DNA of 64,000 nucleotides from Cellulosimicrobium sp. Marseille-Q4280 (lineage in GTDB: Bacteria; Actinomycetota; Actinomycetes; Actinomycetales; Cellulomonadaceae). The first letter of the stretch is position 1; every line of letters begins with the position of its first letter. A program made the position numbers and the translations under genes. Positions 2,518-30,469 of this stretch are shown one piece after another. The stretch is taken from contig NZ_CALPBY010000006.1 in NCBI RefSeq assembly GCF_943181405.1, positions 248,001 through 312,000 on the forward strand, read 5' to 3'. The notes under the pieces are model-generated. The model had not been told where the DNA came from. It did no database searches and worked only from the letters and a program-made list of their open reading frames with translations.

Positions 2518-3072
2518 CTAGCGCGTCGGCGGCAACACGACCTCCCGCGTGCTGGTGAGCACCGTGACGGGCTCGTCGGCCGGCAGCCCGTCGACGTGCA
2601 CGACGCTCGTGCTCGGGACGACGTCGAGCGTGCACGGACGGGTGTCCGTGGCCGCCCTCCGGCCGAACGTGAAGGCGAGGGTGCGCTCGGCGGCGTCCCA
2701 CTCGACGTCGACCGGGGTGAGCGGGCACGAGCTCGACCCGACGGTCACGACGTTCACCGTCTGCGGCTCGCCACCCCTGGCGAAACCGACGCCGTGCTCC
2801 TCGGGGTCGACCGCCGGACGGAGCTCGCCGCCCTCCGCCGGGAGCCCGAGGTAGGTGACGTCGGCGACCGACCTGACGTGCACGGCGGGGTCCGCGACGC
2901 ACGCCGTCAGCCCGAGGCCCGCCACGAGGGCGACTGCCGCGCCGACGGCGGCGCGCGTCGCACGACCGCCGGCCGGGCGGGTCCTCCGGGTCGTCCCGGT
3001 GTGCCGGGTCGATCGAGCCTCCCGGGTGGTCCTCGTCCGGGTCGCCCGCGTCGTGGTCGTGCTCCAGGTCAT
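2518..3072 (-). CDS. putative lipoprotein with Thr/Arg-rich N-terminus
   Basis: A 184-residue protein without a recognised family. From the ATG at 3072 (GGAAGGA ribosome site), residues 1-40 are almost only Thr, Arg and Ala, followed by a hydrophobic segment and a lipobox LTAC with Cys58, then an extracytoplasmic domain with one further Cys pair. The n-region is unusually long for a lipoprotein, so the true start could be internal, although I see no convincing in-frame start nearer the hydrophobic stretch. It is divergent from the fasciclin-domain gene, and a surface role is likely. An in-frame ATG farther upstream (to 3201) gives a longer version lacking a ribosome site. Confidence 0.6.
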
Positions 3073-22417: not shown

Positions 22418-23320
22418 TCAGCGGGTTGCGCCCTCCGCGGTCGTGGTCAGCGCGGTCGCGGCCCAGGACGCGAGCAGCTTGAGGCCGTCGTCCGACGGCG
22501 ATCCCGGCACCGCGGTGTAGACGTTGAGCTGGAGACCCGTGTCGGCCGGCAGCACGAGCGCCTCGTAGTCGAGCTCGAGCGCACCGACGACGGGGTGGTG
22601 GAACGTCTTGGTGCCCGTGCGGTGCAGCCGCACGTCGTGCGAGGCCCACATCCGCCGGAAGTCCTCGCTGCGCGTGGACAGCTCGCCGACCAGGGCCGTG
22701 AGCTTCTTGTCGTACGGGTTCTTCCCGGCCTCGGCCCGCAGGATGGCGACGGCGTCGTGCGCGATCCGCTCGGAGCGCTCGCCCCAGAACTCGCGCGCCG
22801 CCCGCGGGTCGAGGAAGTGGAACCTCGCGCTGTTGACCGGCTGGTTCGCGACCTGCTCCGGCGAGTCGTACAGCGGCGCGTAGAGCGCCCGGCCCAGCCG
22901 GTTCGCCCCGAGCACGTCGAGGCGGCCGTTGCGGACGAAGGCGGGGGCACCCTCCATCGCGTCGAGGATCCTCTGGACGGCGGGCCGCAGGACGGGCGCC
23001 GGGGCGCGGCGTGCGCGGGACCGCGCCGCACCCGAGGCGTTCGCCGCCCGGGCGAGGTCGAAGAGGTGGACGCGCTCGGCGTCGTCGAGCTGGAGGGCCT
23101 CGCACAGCGCCTCGAGCACCTCCTCGGACGCGCCCGCGAGGTTGCCGCGCTCCAGACGCGTGTAGTAGTCCACGCTCACGCCGGCGAGCATCGCGACCTC
23201 CTCGCGCCGCAGGCCGGGCACGCGACGGTTGCCGCCCCAGGCGGGCAGACCGGCGCGGTCCGGCGTGATGCGTGCGCGGCGGGACGCGAGGAACTCGCGG
23301 GTCTCGGCCTTCAGGTCCAT
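22418..23320 (-). CDS. XRE-family regulator with MmyB-type ligand domain
   Basis: A 300-residue regulator. The N-terminal HTH spans about residues 9-75 with the characteristic PGLRREEVAMLAGVSVDYYTRLERG; the C-terminal MmyB-like domain contains APAFVRNGRLDVLGANRLGRAL and ends FHHPVVGALELDYEALVLP. MmyB-type domains bind fatty-acid-like ligands, and in actinobacteria the gene often sits beside an SDR gene. The promoter has the same 24-bp motif, 18-nt spacer and TACCGT box as the neighbouring flavodoxin-SDR and aldo-keto reductase operons, so it probably regulates itself and them. Confidence 0.92.
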   Translation of the reverse strand: MDLKAETREFLASRRARITPDRAGLPAWGGNRRVPGLRREEVAMLAGVSVDYYTRLERGNLAGASEEVLEALCEALQLDDAERVHLFDLARAANASGAARSRARRAPAPVLRPAVQRILDAMEGAPAFVRNGRLDVLGANRLGRALYAPLYDSPEQVANQPVNSARFHFLDPRAAREFWGERSERIAHDAVAILRAEAGKNPYDKKLTALVGELSTRSEDFRRMWASHDVRLHRTGTKTFHHPVVGALELDYEALVLPADTGLQLNVYTAVPGSPSDDGLKLLASWAATALTTTAEGATR

Positions 23321-23326
23321 GCCTCG

Positions 23327-23374
23327 ACGGTACGTCCGGGCGCCGCGGCGTGGGAGGCACTGGTGTTACCCGGG
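23327..23374 (-). promoter_or_regulatory. regulon promoter A (XRE gene)
   Basis: A -10 TACCGT (complement of 23327-23332) lies six bases before the ATG; 18 nt upstream is the shared motif at 23351-23374, ending toward the gene in CCTCCCA. Same architecture as promoters at 24914-24961 and 24996-25043. Confidence 0.65.
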
Positions 23375-23411
23375 AAGCGAGGCCCGTCGCCGCTCCCGCA
23401 CCGAGAGGTCG

Positions 23412-24149
23412 CTATCCGAGCTGGTCCGCGGGACGCAGGAGGATCTCGTTGATCGCGAGGTGACGAGGGCGGGCGAGGACGAACGCGACCACCTCCGCGA
23501 TCTCCTCGGGCTGGACGGTCGCGACGTCGTAGCCCTTCTGCACGGCTGCGCGCGTCGCCTCGTCGGTGATGTGGCTCGGCAGGTCGGTGTCGACCACGCC
23601 CGGCTCGATCAGGGTCACGCGTACGTCGGGAAGGAGCTCCTGGCGCAACGACTCCGACCAGCCGTTGACGCCCCACTTCGTGGCGGCATACACGCCGTTG
23701 GACGCCCGAGCGGTGCGCCCCGCCACGGACGAGATGTTGATCAGGTCGCCGCCGCCGTCCTTCAGCTGGTCGAGGAACACCTCCGTGGTGGTGATGGCGC
23801 CGAGGAGGTTCACCTCGACCATCGCGCGGTAGTCGTCGCGCCGGTCGGACGAGAACGGGCCCAGGAGCATCACGCCGGCGTTGTTGACGAGCACGTCGGC
23901 ACCGCCGAGCTCCTCCCGGACGCGCGCCGCGGCCGCGACGAGCGCGTCCCGGTCGGTCACGTCGGCCGGGATCGCGATCGCGCCGCCGCCGATCTCCGCG
24001 GCGAGGGCGTCGATGCGGTCGGCCCGGCGCGCCAGCAGCGCGACGCGGTAGCCGTCGGCCGCGAGCGCGCGAGCGGTCGCCGCGCCGATCCCGGACGACG
24101 CGCCGGTGATGACCGCGACGCGGCCCTGGTTCCCGGTGTTCTCACTCAT
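23412..24149 (-). CDS. short-chain dehydrogenase/reductase
   Basis: A 245-residue classical SDR: NAD(P)-binding TGASSGIG at 15-22, NNAG in VLVNNAGVML, catalytic Ser in ISSVAG, and YAATK as the Tyr/Lys pair. The RR/R after the second strand (LLARRADR) favours NADP(H). AGGGAA precedes the ATG; longer in-frame forms lack a site. The start overlaps the 3' end of the flavodoxin gene by 8 bp, so both belong to one operon driven from promoter B. Confidence 0.93.
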   Translation of the reverse strand: MSENTGNQGRVAVITGASSGIGAATARALAADGYRVALLARRADRIDALAAEIGGGAIAIPADVTDRDALVAAAARVREELGGADVLVNNAGVMLLGPFSSDRRDDYRAMVEVNLLGAITTTEVFLDQLKDGGGDLINISSVAGRTARASNGVYAATKWGVNGWSESLRQELLPDVRVTLIEPGVVDTDLPSHITDEATRAAVQKGYDVATVQPEEIAEVVAFVLARPRHLAINEILLRPADQLG

Positions 24150-24906
24150 CTGCTTCCCTCTCGTCCAGGAGGCCGGCTGCGGTGAGCCAGTCCTCGAGCT
24201 CCGCACCCGCGTCCGCGACGGTCTCCCCGCGGACCGCCAGGCCGGCGCCCACGTCGGAGTCCGGCAGGGCGTCGCGGTAGTCGTCGTCGATCCCGGCCAT
24301 GCCGGAGACGGCGTAGGTGACGAACGGCAGGACGCTCTTGCCGCGCAGGTCCACGCCCTCGACGAACGTGGACATGATCATCGGCGCCCGGACGTTCCAC
24401 ACCGGGCTGCCGAGCAGCACGACGTCGTACCCCGCGACGTCCGGGAGATCCCCCGCGATCGCCGGCCGGGCGTCGGACTCCTGCTCCCGGACGTTGCGCT
24501 CGACCGTCGGGTCGTACGCCTCCGGGTAGGGGTCGGCCGCCTCGATCTCGTAGACGTCGCAGTCGACCCGGTCCGAGATCATCCCGGCCAGGACCGCCGT
24601 GTTGCCGACCTCGAGGTCCCGTCGGCCTCCCTCGTGGTAGTTCTCCCCGGCACGCGAGAAGTACACGAGCAGCACGCTCGCCGTGGGGTCTGCCGTCATC
24701 TCCGTGGTCTCCTCCGACTGCTGGGTGCCGTCCTGCGACGGGTCGCCGGGCACCGCGGTCGTCCTCGGCCCGGGTCGCGGGTCTCCGGCGCACCCGGCGG
24801 CGATCGTCGCCGCACCCGCGAGCGCGGCACGCAGCAGCGTCCGCCGGCTCGGTGCGGGCCCGCCCATCGTCCTGACCTCGGCGAGGTTCGCGTGCGTGAT
24901 GTCCAC
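24142..24906 (-). CDS. exported flavodoxin-domain protein (Tat lipoprotein signal)
   Basis: A 254-residue protein. Residues about 19-45 carry a twin-arginine motif (PSRRTLLRAALAG) followed by a lipobox-like IAAGC, then a Ser/Thr/Glu linker and a flavodoxin domain: LLVYFSRAGENYHEGG for the FMN phosphate, VVLLGSPVWNVRAPM and FVTYAVSG. Tat export fits a protein folded around FMN before export. The GTG at 24906 is chosen because a TACCGT box lies seven bases upstream exactly as in two sister promoters; ATG 24867 (241 residues) is the alternative and starts just before the Tat motif. Exported flavodoxins are unusual, and the electron partners are unknown. Confidence 0.82.
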   Translation of the reverse strand: MDITHANLAEVRTMGGPAPSRRTLLRAALAGAATIAAGCAGDPRPGPRTTAVPGDPSQDGTQQSEETTEMTADPTASVLLVYFSRAGENYHEGGRRDLEVGNTAVLAGMISDRVDCDVYEIEAADPYPEAYDPTVERNVREQESDARPAIAGDLPDVAGYDVVLLGSPVWNVRAPMIMSTFVEGVDLRGKSVLPFVTYAVSGMAGIDDDYRDALPDSDVGAGLAVRGETVADAGAELEDWLTAAGLLDEREADE

Positions 24907-24913
24907 CTCCCCG

Positions 24914-24961
24914 ACGGTAGGACCGCAGCGCGGGACGTGGGAGGCCCTGGCAGTACCCCGC
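24914..24961 (-). promoter_or_regulatory. regulon promoter B (flavodoxin-SDR operon)
   Basis: TACCGT (complement of 24914-24919) lies seven bases before GTG 24906; 18 nt farther is the shared 24-bp motif at 24938-24961, in the same orientation relative to transcription as in promoters A and C. Confidence 0.65.
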
Positions 24962-24995
24962 CCGTCCGGTCCTCCTCGCACCGCCGTCCTGAGGA

Positions 24996-25043
24996 GCGGG
25001 GTACCAGCAGGACCTCCCGTGCTCAGCTGAGCGCGCCTACCGT
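24996..25043 (+). promoter_or_regulatory. regulon promoter C (aldo-keto reductase operon)
   Basis: The shared motif at 24996-25019 (GCGGGGTACC followed by AGCAGGACCTCCCG) lies 18 nt before TACCGT (25038-25043), which is seven bases before the ATG. It is divergent from promoter B, with the two motifs 34 bp apart. Confidence 0.65.
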
Positions 25044-25050
25044 CGAGAGC

Positions 25051-25944
25051 ATGACCACGAACCCGGTACCCACGCTCACCCTGAACAACGGCGTCGAGAT
25101 GCCCGCCCTGGGCTACGGCGTCTTCCAGACGCCGCCCGACGAGACGGTGACCGCGGTCGAGGCCGCGCTGTCCACCGGCTACCGGCACATCGACACCGCC
25201 GCCGCGTACGGCAACGAGGCAGGCGTCGGCGAGGCGATCCGCCGCTCCGGCCTGGACCGCTCCGACGTGTTCGTCGAGTCGAAGGTCTGGATCAGCGACT
25301 ACGGCTACGACACCACGCTGCACGCGTTCGACAAGAGCGCCGGCAAGCTCGGCGTCGACCAGATCGACCTCTTCATCCTCCACCAGGCCCTGCCCTCCCG
25401 CTTCGACCTCACCATCGAGGCCTACAAGGCCCTGGAGACGCTGCTCGCCGACGGCAAGGTCCGCGCCATCGGCGTCAGCAACTTCATGCCCGAGCACCTG
25501 GACCGGCTCCTGGCCGAGACGTCCGTCGTGCCCGCCGTCAACCAGGTCGAGGTGCACCCGTACTTCCGCCAGCCCGACGTGCTCGCGACCGACGCCGCCC
25601 ACGGCATCCTCACCCAGGCCTGGTCGCCGATCGGCGGCATCACGTTCTACCGCGACGGCGAGCACACCAGCACGCTGCAGGACCCGACGATCGTCGGCAT
25701 CGGCGAGGCGCACGGCAAGAGCCCAGCCCAGGTGATGCTGCGCTGGCACCTGCAGCAGGGCCGCTCCGCCATCCCCAAGTCGGTCACCCCGCACCGCATC
25801 GCGGAGAACTTCGACGTCCTCGACTTCGAGCTCACCGACGACGAGATCGCCGCCGTCGACGCCCTCGACACCGGCCAGCGCGGCGGCCCCGAGCCCGAGG
25901 ACATCACGCTCGAGGCCTTCGGCCGCGAGATCCCCGAGGCGTGA
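25051..25944 (+). CDS. aldo-keto reductase (AKR5-like)
   Basis: A 297-residue NADPH-dependent oxidoreductase with the complete catalytic tetrad Asp48, Tyr53, Lys78 and His111 (HIDTAAAYGNE, ESKVW, LHQAL). The C-terminal IPKSVTPHRIAENFDVLDF is the cofactor 2'-phosphate clamp. Length and motifs fit 2,5-diketogluconate reductase-like AKRs, which reduce a range of aldehydes and ketones. Its start is probably leaderless, from promoter C. A second AKR follows two bases after its stop. Confidence 0.94.
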   Translation: MTTNPVPTLTLNNGVEMPALGYGVFQTPPDETVTAVEAALSTGYRHIDTAAAYGNEAGVGEAIRRSGLDRSDVFVESKVWISDYGYDTTLHAFDKSAGKLGVDQIDLFILHQALPSRFDLTIEAYKALETLLADGKVRAIGVSNFMPEHLDRLLAETSVVPAVNQVEVHPYFRQPDVLATDAAHGILTQAWSPIGGITFYRDGEHTSTLQDPTIVGIGEAHGKSPAQVMLRWHLQQGRSAIPKSVTPHRIAENFDVLDFELTDDEIAAVDALDTGQRGGPEPEDITLEAFGREIPEA

Positions 25945-25946
25945 GC

Positions 25947-26963
25947 ATGGATCTCCGACCGCTCGGACGCACCGGCGTCCAGGTCAGCCCGCTGACCCTC
26001 GGCGCGATGATGCTCGGCCCCTGGGGCAACGACGACCGGCAGGACGCGACCCGGATCGTCCACCGTGCCCTCGACGCCGGGATCAACGTCGTCGACACCG
26101 CCGACGTGTACTCCGCCGGCGTCTCCGAGGAGATCGTCGGCGAGGCGATCTCCGGGCGTCGGGACGACGTCTTCCTCGCGACGAAGTTCTTCATGCCGAT
26201 GGGTGACGACCCGAACCACCGGGGCGGGTCCCGCCGGTGGATCATGCGGGCCGTCGAGGACTCGCTGCGGCGCCTCAGGACCGACCACCTCGACCTCTAC
26301 CAGGTGCACCGGCCGTCGCCCGACACCGACGTGGAGGAGACGCTCGGCGCGCTCACCGACCTCGTGCGGCAGGGCAAGGTCCGGTACATCGGGTCGTCGT
26401 CGTACTCGGCGTCGCAGATCGTCGAGGCCCAGTGGGCGTCCAGGGAGCGGAACCTCGAGCGCTTCGTGACCGAGCAGCCGCCGTACTCGATCCTCGTGCG
26501 CGGCATCGAGGAGGACGTCCTGCCGACCGTCCTCCGGAACGGCATGGGCACCTTCACGTACAGCCCTCTCAGCGGCGGCTGGCTGTCGGGCCGGTGGCGC
26601 AAGGACTCCGCGTCCGCCCCGACCTCGAGCGCGCGGCCCAGCGCCCGCTTCGACATGAGCAGCCCCGCGAACCAGCGCAAGCTCGACGTCGTCGAGGAGC
26701 TCGCCCAGCTCGCGGAGCAGGCGGGCATGACGCTCGTCGAGCTGGCGATCGCGTTCGTGGTCCGACACCCGGGCGTCACCTCCGCGATCGTCGGTCCGCG
26801 CACGATGGAGCAGCTCGAGTCGTACCTGCCGGCCCTCGACATCACGCTCGGCGACGACGTCCTCGACCGGATCGACGAGCTCGTCGCCCCCGGCGTCACC
26901 GTCAACCCGGACGACAACAGCTACGGCGCCCACGAGCTCACGCCGACCGCGCGGCGACGCTGA
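25947..26963 (+). CDS. aldo-keto reductase (Tas/YajO-like)
   Basis: A 338-residue AKR of the subgroup formerly related to Kv channel beta subunits. The tetrad is Asp50, Tyr55, Lys80 and His121 (VVDTADVYSAG, LATKF, YQVHRP). The C-terminal SAIVGPRTMEQLESYLPAL binds NADP. GAGG lies eight bases before ATG 25947; a GTG at 25941 overlaps the previous stop. It is cotranscribed with the preceding AKR, giving two reductases of different subfamilies under the same promoter. Confidence 0.93.
   Translation: MDLRPLGRTGVQVSPLTLGAMMLGPWGNDDRQDATRIVHRALDAGINVVDTADVYSAGVSEEIVGEAISGRRDDVFLATKFFMPMGDDPNHRGGSRRWIMRAVEDSLRRLRTDHLDLYQVHRPSPDTDVEETLGALTDLVRQGKVRYIGSSSYSASQIVEAQWASRERNLERFVTEQPPYSILVRGIEEDVLPTVLRNGMGTFTYSPLSGGWLSGRWRKDSASAPTSSARPSARFDMSSPANQRKLDVVEELAQLAEQAGMTLVELAIAFVVRHPGVTSAIVGPRTMEQLESYLPALDITLGDDVLDRIDELVAPGVTVNPDDNSYGAHELTPTARRR

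Positions 26964-28197: not shown

Positions 28198-30469
<2,272 letters not shown>

Follow-up and report, generated by a model that had tools for sequence, protein, structure and literature searches.

Three neighbouring promoters in the genome of Cellulosimicrobium sp. Marseille-Q4280 carry one sequence motif, which raises the question of which protein reads it and how it acts on transcription. The window (the whole stretch of 64,000 nucleotides analysed here) corresponds to C6:248001-312000 of the 4.86-Mb genome and has a GC content of 72.6%. One of the promoters belongs to a 300-aa regulator of the XRE/MmyB type (22418..23320, minus strand). The protein has the domain order of the MmyB/MltR family, with an N-terminal XRE-type HTH and a C-terminal MLTR ligand-binding domain; the Pfam scores are 195.5 bits for MLTR_LBD (cut-off 26.3) and 43 for HTH_31 (cut-off 27). 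Its sole sequence match in the PDB is 3pxp (MltR; E 7.8e-07, aligned over 54-280). The source genome has eight MLTR_LBD matches above the Pfam cut-off.

The other two promoters drive short operons. On the minus strand, a 254-aa Flavodoxin_4 protein with a GTG start (24142..24906; Pfam 82.1 bits, cut-off 24) is followed by an SDR oxidoreductase (23412..24149; Pfam adh_short, 180.8 bits), and by their coordinates the two genes overlap by 8 nt. The Pfam scan of the flavodoxin covered 24148-24909; the start at 24906 was set from promoter geometry and the matrix scan described below. The SDR gene lies 91 nt upstream of the regulator gene and is co-directional with it, so that the regulator has the adjacent SDR that characterises its family. 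On the plus strand are two aldo-keto reductases separated by 2 nt: AKR1 (25051..25944; Pfam Aldo_ket_red, 165.8 bits) and AKR2 (25947..26963; 261.4 bits), which belongs to a different subgroup. The model nearest to AKR1 is NCBIfam DkgA, at 265 bits, below the model cut-off of 425. The Pfam matches bear out the preliminary description, which listed an exported flavodoxin, an SDR and two aldo-keto reductases as outputs; the export signal is a twin-arginine and lipobox-like N-terminus, SRRTLLRAALAGAATIAAGC, judged by eye. A further AKR-like reading frame is present at 29483-30469 (plus strand). It matches AKR2 at 35%, and the matrix scan found no operator upstream of it.

The exact pattern GGTANNNNCAGNNCCTCCC occurs three times in the window, and each copy is directed at its own gene. 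This agrees with the earlier claim that one motif stands before the XRE, flavodoxin-SDR and AKR genes in the same orientation to transcription. The predicted operators, as located by pattern and matrix, are GGTAACACCAGTGCCTCCC for the regulator (23352..23370, minus strand, also supported by alignment), GGTACTGCCAGGGCCTCCC for the flavodoxin-SDR operon (24939..24957, minus strand) and GGTACCAGCAGGACCTCCC for the AKR operon (25000..25018, plus strand). When up to two mismatches are allowed, the window has six places against 1.76 expected, a number reached by one of 100 shuffles. A genome-wide search returned these three exact copies only, and the pattern read backwards gave two; a looser pattern added one place, with two again for the backward control.

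The geometry of the three promoters is the same. A TACCGT box lies 6 nt before the ATG of the regulator at 23320 (box 23327..23332, minus strand), 7 nt before the GTG of the flavodoxin at 24906 (24914..24919, minus strand) and 7 nt before the ATG of AKR1 at 25051 (25038..25043, plus strand), just as had been described. All three thus have the leaderless type of geometry, with TANNNT 6-7 nt ahead of the start codon. The gap between CCTCCC and TACCGT is identical in all three, as had been claimed, but it is 19 nt and not 18; the earlier figure was counted from the end of a 24-bp block, one base past CCTCCC. If TACCGT is placed at -12..-7 as a -10 box, CCTCCC spans -37..-32, and the proposed overlap of the motif end with the -35 position therefore holds.

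Both motif and spacing are kept in orthologous loci, a check on which the preliminary description had staked its own refutation. The comparison used 40 distinct promoters whose regulators share at least 70% identity with that of the window, which was left out; Rhodococcus loci were included. Aligned on the box, these promoters have TACCGT at -12..-7 and GGTAMCGCCAGTACCTCCC at -50..-32, and the spacer between them is little conserved. TANNNT lies 6 or 7 nt before the ATG in 40 of 41 regulator promoters, the window's own included (13 at 6 nt, 27 at 7 nt), which extends the leaderless geometry noted earlier beyond this locus. In the one exception, L135, the start is mis-anchored and the same box is present further upstream. 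The block is decayed in L022, an example of an ortholog promoter that does not match.

The ortholog consensus also reveals a symmetry that is less plain in the window copies and that the preliminary description did not recognise. The core of the operator forms an imperfect dyad of 15 bp, with its centre near -43 and the ideal form GGTAC-TGNCA-GTACC. The TCCC at -35 is asymmetric and lies outside it. Over 62 sites, 61% of pairs are complementary at this centre, against 53% at the next best; a manual count gives three of seven dyad pairs for the regulator site of the window. In the relative L137, the regulator and AKR1 share a single dyad that has CTCCC at either end, at 19 nt each way. In many regulator promoters, an inverted second element adjoins on the upstream side (one example, read in its own direction, is GGGCACGTCCGGGACTCCC). 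These elements and L137 indicate that dyad and TCCC are separable, and that TCCC follows the direction of the promoter.

The genes behind the inverted elements widen the range of predicted targets. Eighteen such places were listed, and in 14 of them a reading frame begins at the expected distance. It encodes an MFS transporter in L125, L126, L128, L132, L134, L138, L147 and L161, and a shortened one in L150; AKR1 in L140, L142 and L148; and a flavodoxin in L126 and L162, the frame of the latter ending early. In L129, L151, L157 and L158 no start was found at that distance. The MFS genes are divergent from the regulator and have their own inverted operator with the same 19-nt geometry; their -10 boxes are poor (e.g. 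TCTGAT). The model nearest to the L126 transporter is DHA2/EmrB, with a score under its cut-off. In L125 and L150 the MFS reading frame crosses the AKR1 operator and continues, without a change of frame, into AKR1. No MFS gene adjoins the regulator in the window.

The promoters of 39 regulators, that of the window not among them, served to train a matrix covering operator and -10 box, which was then applied to 40 regions together with the window (797,434 bp). The matrix gave 66 matches, and none on the reversed sequence; within the window it found just the three sites. Downstream of the matches are 39 regulators, 20 AKR1 genes, two flavodoxins and one antisense frame, while four lack the expected start. 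The 39 regulator matches are mostly training genes and thus circular, whereas the AKR1 and flavodoxin promoters were untrained. The antisense match is in L126, where its dyad faces the flavodoxin gene in the other direction. Eight of the regions (L155-L160, L162 and L163), as well as L161, had been chosen for carrying the motif.

Across 200 genomes of the family, the exact motif is present in 49 and an ortholog of the regulator (at least 73% identity, read from the match list) in 32. Both occur in 31 genomes, the ortholog only in one, the motif only in 18 and neither in 150 (Fisher p 1.5e-22, computed without correction for relatedness). The surroundings examined comprise 70 distinct motif sites, and 52 of them have a regulator homolog no more than 6 kb away; TANNNT follows at 19 nt in 48 of these 52 and at 20 nt in two. 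Among the other 18 sites, a -10 box stands at 19 nt in four. These 18 count as not linked to a regulator within the stretch examined, which is about 3 kb for 16 of them. A class-wide scan of 296 genomes used the DNA pattern alone, as a composite with 18-20 nt between its parts. Fifteen genomes were positive, the source genome included, and there were 16 sites outside it. Thirteen of the 16 are directly upstream of a related regulator (59-65% identity; the pieces of L210 have 72 and 59%). The remaining sites are L216, upstream of a co-directional SDR, L222, with a divergent SDR, and L211, which has none of five window proteins nearby. The L210 regulator, on the minus strand from about 1493, is represented by two separate tblastn pieces; operator and -10 box are kept, and the frame stops after 103 aa.

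The presence of the site also follows the protein. The promoters of 119 MLTR regulators were scored for their best operator, and those above the 99% level of random sequence were taken to pass. All 41 pass at 70% identity or more, where most belong to the training set, as do 33 of 33 at 60-70% and nine of 12 at 55-60%. None passes among six at 45-55% or among 27 at 30-45%. At 55-70% identity, 22 of the 45 rows had entered via motif searches; of the 23 regulators picked by protein, 20 pass and L005, L191 and L192 fail. The operator accompanies a recognition region of the form YYxRLERGN and is absent with helices of the LEQGR type, with L191 and L192 as exceptions that keep the helix and lack the operator. 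This co-variation is good comparative evidence that the regulator reads the site. Other actinobacteria have this site and spacing next to related regulators, and on these grounds the regulator very likely controls its own gene and the adjoining detoxification reductase genes together. The compact regulon put forward earlier, which includes the regulator's own gene and has the XRE protein as its predicted reader, is thus supported by the comparative promoters, the matrix and the class-wide scan.

How the protein would act is best approached from the position of the site. Activators of class II sit near -41.5 at promoters with a poor -35; here the centre of the dyad falls near -43. A search of 23200-25200 returned no promoter of the sigma-70 consensus type. 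From the sites, their geometry, their conservation and their co-variation with the recognition region, all of which can be read in the DNA, we infer a model of binding, transcript starts, activation and signal that we consider somewhat better than even as the overall explanation. A homodimer of the MmyB/MltR-family XRE protein would bind the 15-bp dyad at its own promoter and at those of flavodoxin/SDR and AKR1-AKR2. The asymmetric TCCC would occupy the -35 position in place of a TTGACA-like hexamer. The bound dimer would then contact region 4 of sigma and compensate for the poor -35, most likely as a class II activator under ligand control, and the transcripts of the three promoters would be leaderless. 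Points against the model include the imperfect pairing of the dyad and the presence of a -10 box at just four of the 18 motif sites that are not linked to a regulator.

The same protein at the same sites could instead be a repressor that sits over the -35, with CTCCC as a real if weak -35 element; release by the ligand would then co-induce regulator, reductases and, in relatives, efflux. The predicted operator does cover the -35, autoregulation is usual among XRE regulators according to the part of PMC12565409 that was available, and in Corynebacterium glutamicum the regulator MsrR is a repressor both of its own gene and of an MFS gene divergent from it (PMC7532634, likewise available in part). 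CTCCC strings have 19 nt as their commonest spacing to a -10 box (14 of 50), and in the subset analysed 10 of these 14 have no operator; the spacing of TTGAC strings peaks at 18 nt (17 of 39). Since CTCCC is found at 19 nt where there is no operator, it may be an ordinary, usable weak -35 in these GC-rich genomes. A control on the -35 of 36 leaderless-like promoters gave no signal relative to shuffles (p 0.37) and no difference from eight motif promoters (p 0.41). What speaks against repression is that operator and -10 box keep an almost constant spacing whether the gene encodes a regulator, an AKR, a flavodoxin or an MFS transporter. Occlusion needs no such spacing, and contact with polymerase is favoured over it; the lack of a TTGACA-like hexamer points the same way. 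We regard activation as the probable mode and repression as a real possibility of lower standing, at roughly one chance in three. L196, L197 and L200 are among the places where a leaderless-type promoter has CTCCC 19 nt ahead of its -10 box and no operator. The surroundings of seven operator-less CTCCC strings, among them an AKR in L199, share no theme.

The block might also be a promoter element of an alternative sigma factor, or the site of another regulator, to which the XRE protein does not bind. It spans the -35 at a fixed distance from the -10 box, and 18 genomes have the motif and no ortholog at 73% identity or more. A 15-bp dyad is, however, unlike a sigma element. The site tracks a single clade of MLTR regulators, other members of the family lack it in their promoters, and a regulator of that clade follows 13 of the 16 class-wide sites. 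The sigma-factor element was rejected as the main reading because of the dyad and this association, and we consider the whole alternative very improbable.

A broader form of the preferred, activator model can be put forward tentatively, at a little less than an even chance: that MmyB/MltR regulators with YYxRLERGN in Actinomycetes use a rigid code, in which a dyad at -43 adjoins CTCCC at -35, CTCCC precedes TANNNT by 19 nt at a leaderless start and the regulator replaces the missing -35. If this is true, two leaderless genes in divergent orientation can share a single dyad that has CTCCC at either end.

The signal is a separate question. The redox label of the preliminary description invites comparison with a thiol switch like that of MsrR, which would sense oxidants through cysteine. 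Oxidoreductases are among the outputs, and the regulator has a single cysteine, C73, in its DNA-binding domain. This residue has a counterpart in only one of 40 orthologs and 35 of the 40 have no cysteine at all, yet the operator is kept. A conserved thiol redox switch was dismissed on this evidence, redox as a signal sensed through a conserved thiol is not supported, and an MsrR-like mode for this regulator is extremely unlikely. In the preferred model, the PAS-like domain would respond to a small compound, either lipophilic or carbonyl, and the output would be carbonyl or xenobiotic detoxification by the reductases, joined in several relatives by MFS efflux. A DkgA-like reductase, an SDR, a flavodoxin and efflux together suggest carbonyl or xenobiotic stress; such detoxification fits the reductase and MFS outputs at least as well as redox does.

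Regulators of the MmyB/MltR family have been proposed to be activators that respond to a small-molecule ligand such as a fatty acid, and an SDR/MDR or antibiotic gene is adjacent to them, often divergent. The XRE-type HTH dimer of lambda CI at PRM binds a dyad near -42, contacts sigma at -35 and activates in class II fashion; its likeness to the arrangement proposed here is one of geometry alone. YqhC of Escherichia coli regulates yqhD and dkgA; it belongs to the AraC family, and its fold is unrelated to that of the XRE regulator. Its regulon resembles the present one in having a local regulator, a DkgA-like reductase as target and a role in aldehyde detoxification (accessible parts of PMC5297802 and PMC8262776). 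In the portion of PMC3406030 covered, MmyB-like regulators number more than 1000, and the MmyB/MltR family is linked to SDR genes and is expected to bind as a dimer to a pseudo-palindrome over about one helical turn; B-boxes are named for MmyB, with no sequence given in that text. The window regulator is like MltR of Chloroflexus aurantiacus (3pxp) and MmyB of Streptomyces coelicolor in its order of HTH and MLTR_LBD and in its SDR neighbour, and the conserved dyad, known here from sequence, would fit the expected pseudo-palindromic target (PMC3406030, same portion). Unlike the pattern in that portion, the SDR is upstream in a co-directional operon and not divergent, and the predicted targets include two AKRs and a flavodoxin. 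MsrR is also XRE-type and controls a divergent MFS gene in addition to its own, much as orthologs of the window regulator adjoin MFS genes; it differs in being a repressor of 240 aa with a thiol switch at Cys62, whereas C73 is not conserved (PMC7532634, sections available).

A published operator for the YYxRLERGN clade was not found in the available text of PMC3406030, PMC7532634, PMC10717218 and PMC12565409, nor in searches whose reach ended at supplements and most subscription papers; the main text of PMC12565409, searched for the letters GGTAC and GTACC, had no match. Within these sources the regulator family, its SDR linkage and the expected symmetric target are known, and the operator and fixed geometry of the local regulon were not found described. 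Few MmyB-like regulators have known target sites. A readable operator of fixed geometry would make the targets of this clade predictable from sequence and would tie it to carbonyl or xenobiotic detoxification and efflux, and not to antibiotics alone. It also makes activation of leaderless promoters from -35 by these proteins directly testable.

Other MLTR regulators show different arrangements. L191 and L192 (57% identical) keep the helix YYTRLERGN and have no such operator before the annotated start. Two Streptomyces regulators, L037 and L038 (46-47% identical), carry a different dyad, TCCTGGGTCTGCCAGTACCAGGA, in a comparable position, just upstream of position 3001; perhaps this is the code of a sister clade. 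The nearest paralog of the window regulator (57% identical; L005/L204; MLTR gene 266375-267232 on C1) has a different and very large operator-like inverted repeat just upstream, GGGAGTCCCTGGCGTGGGGTGTACC..., with two 25-bp arms, one mismatch and three bases between them. The repeat ends in CTCCC, which is followed after 21 nt by a leaderless-type TACCCT box.
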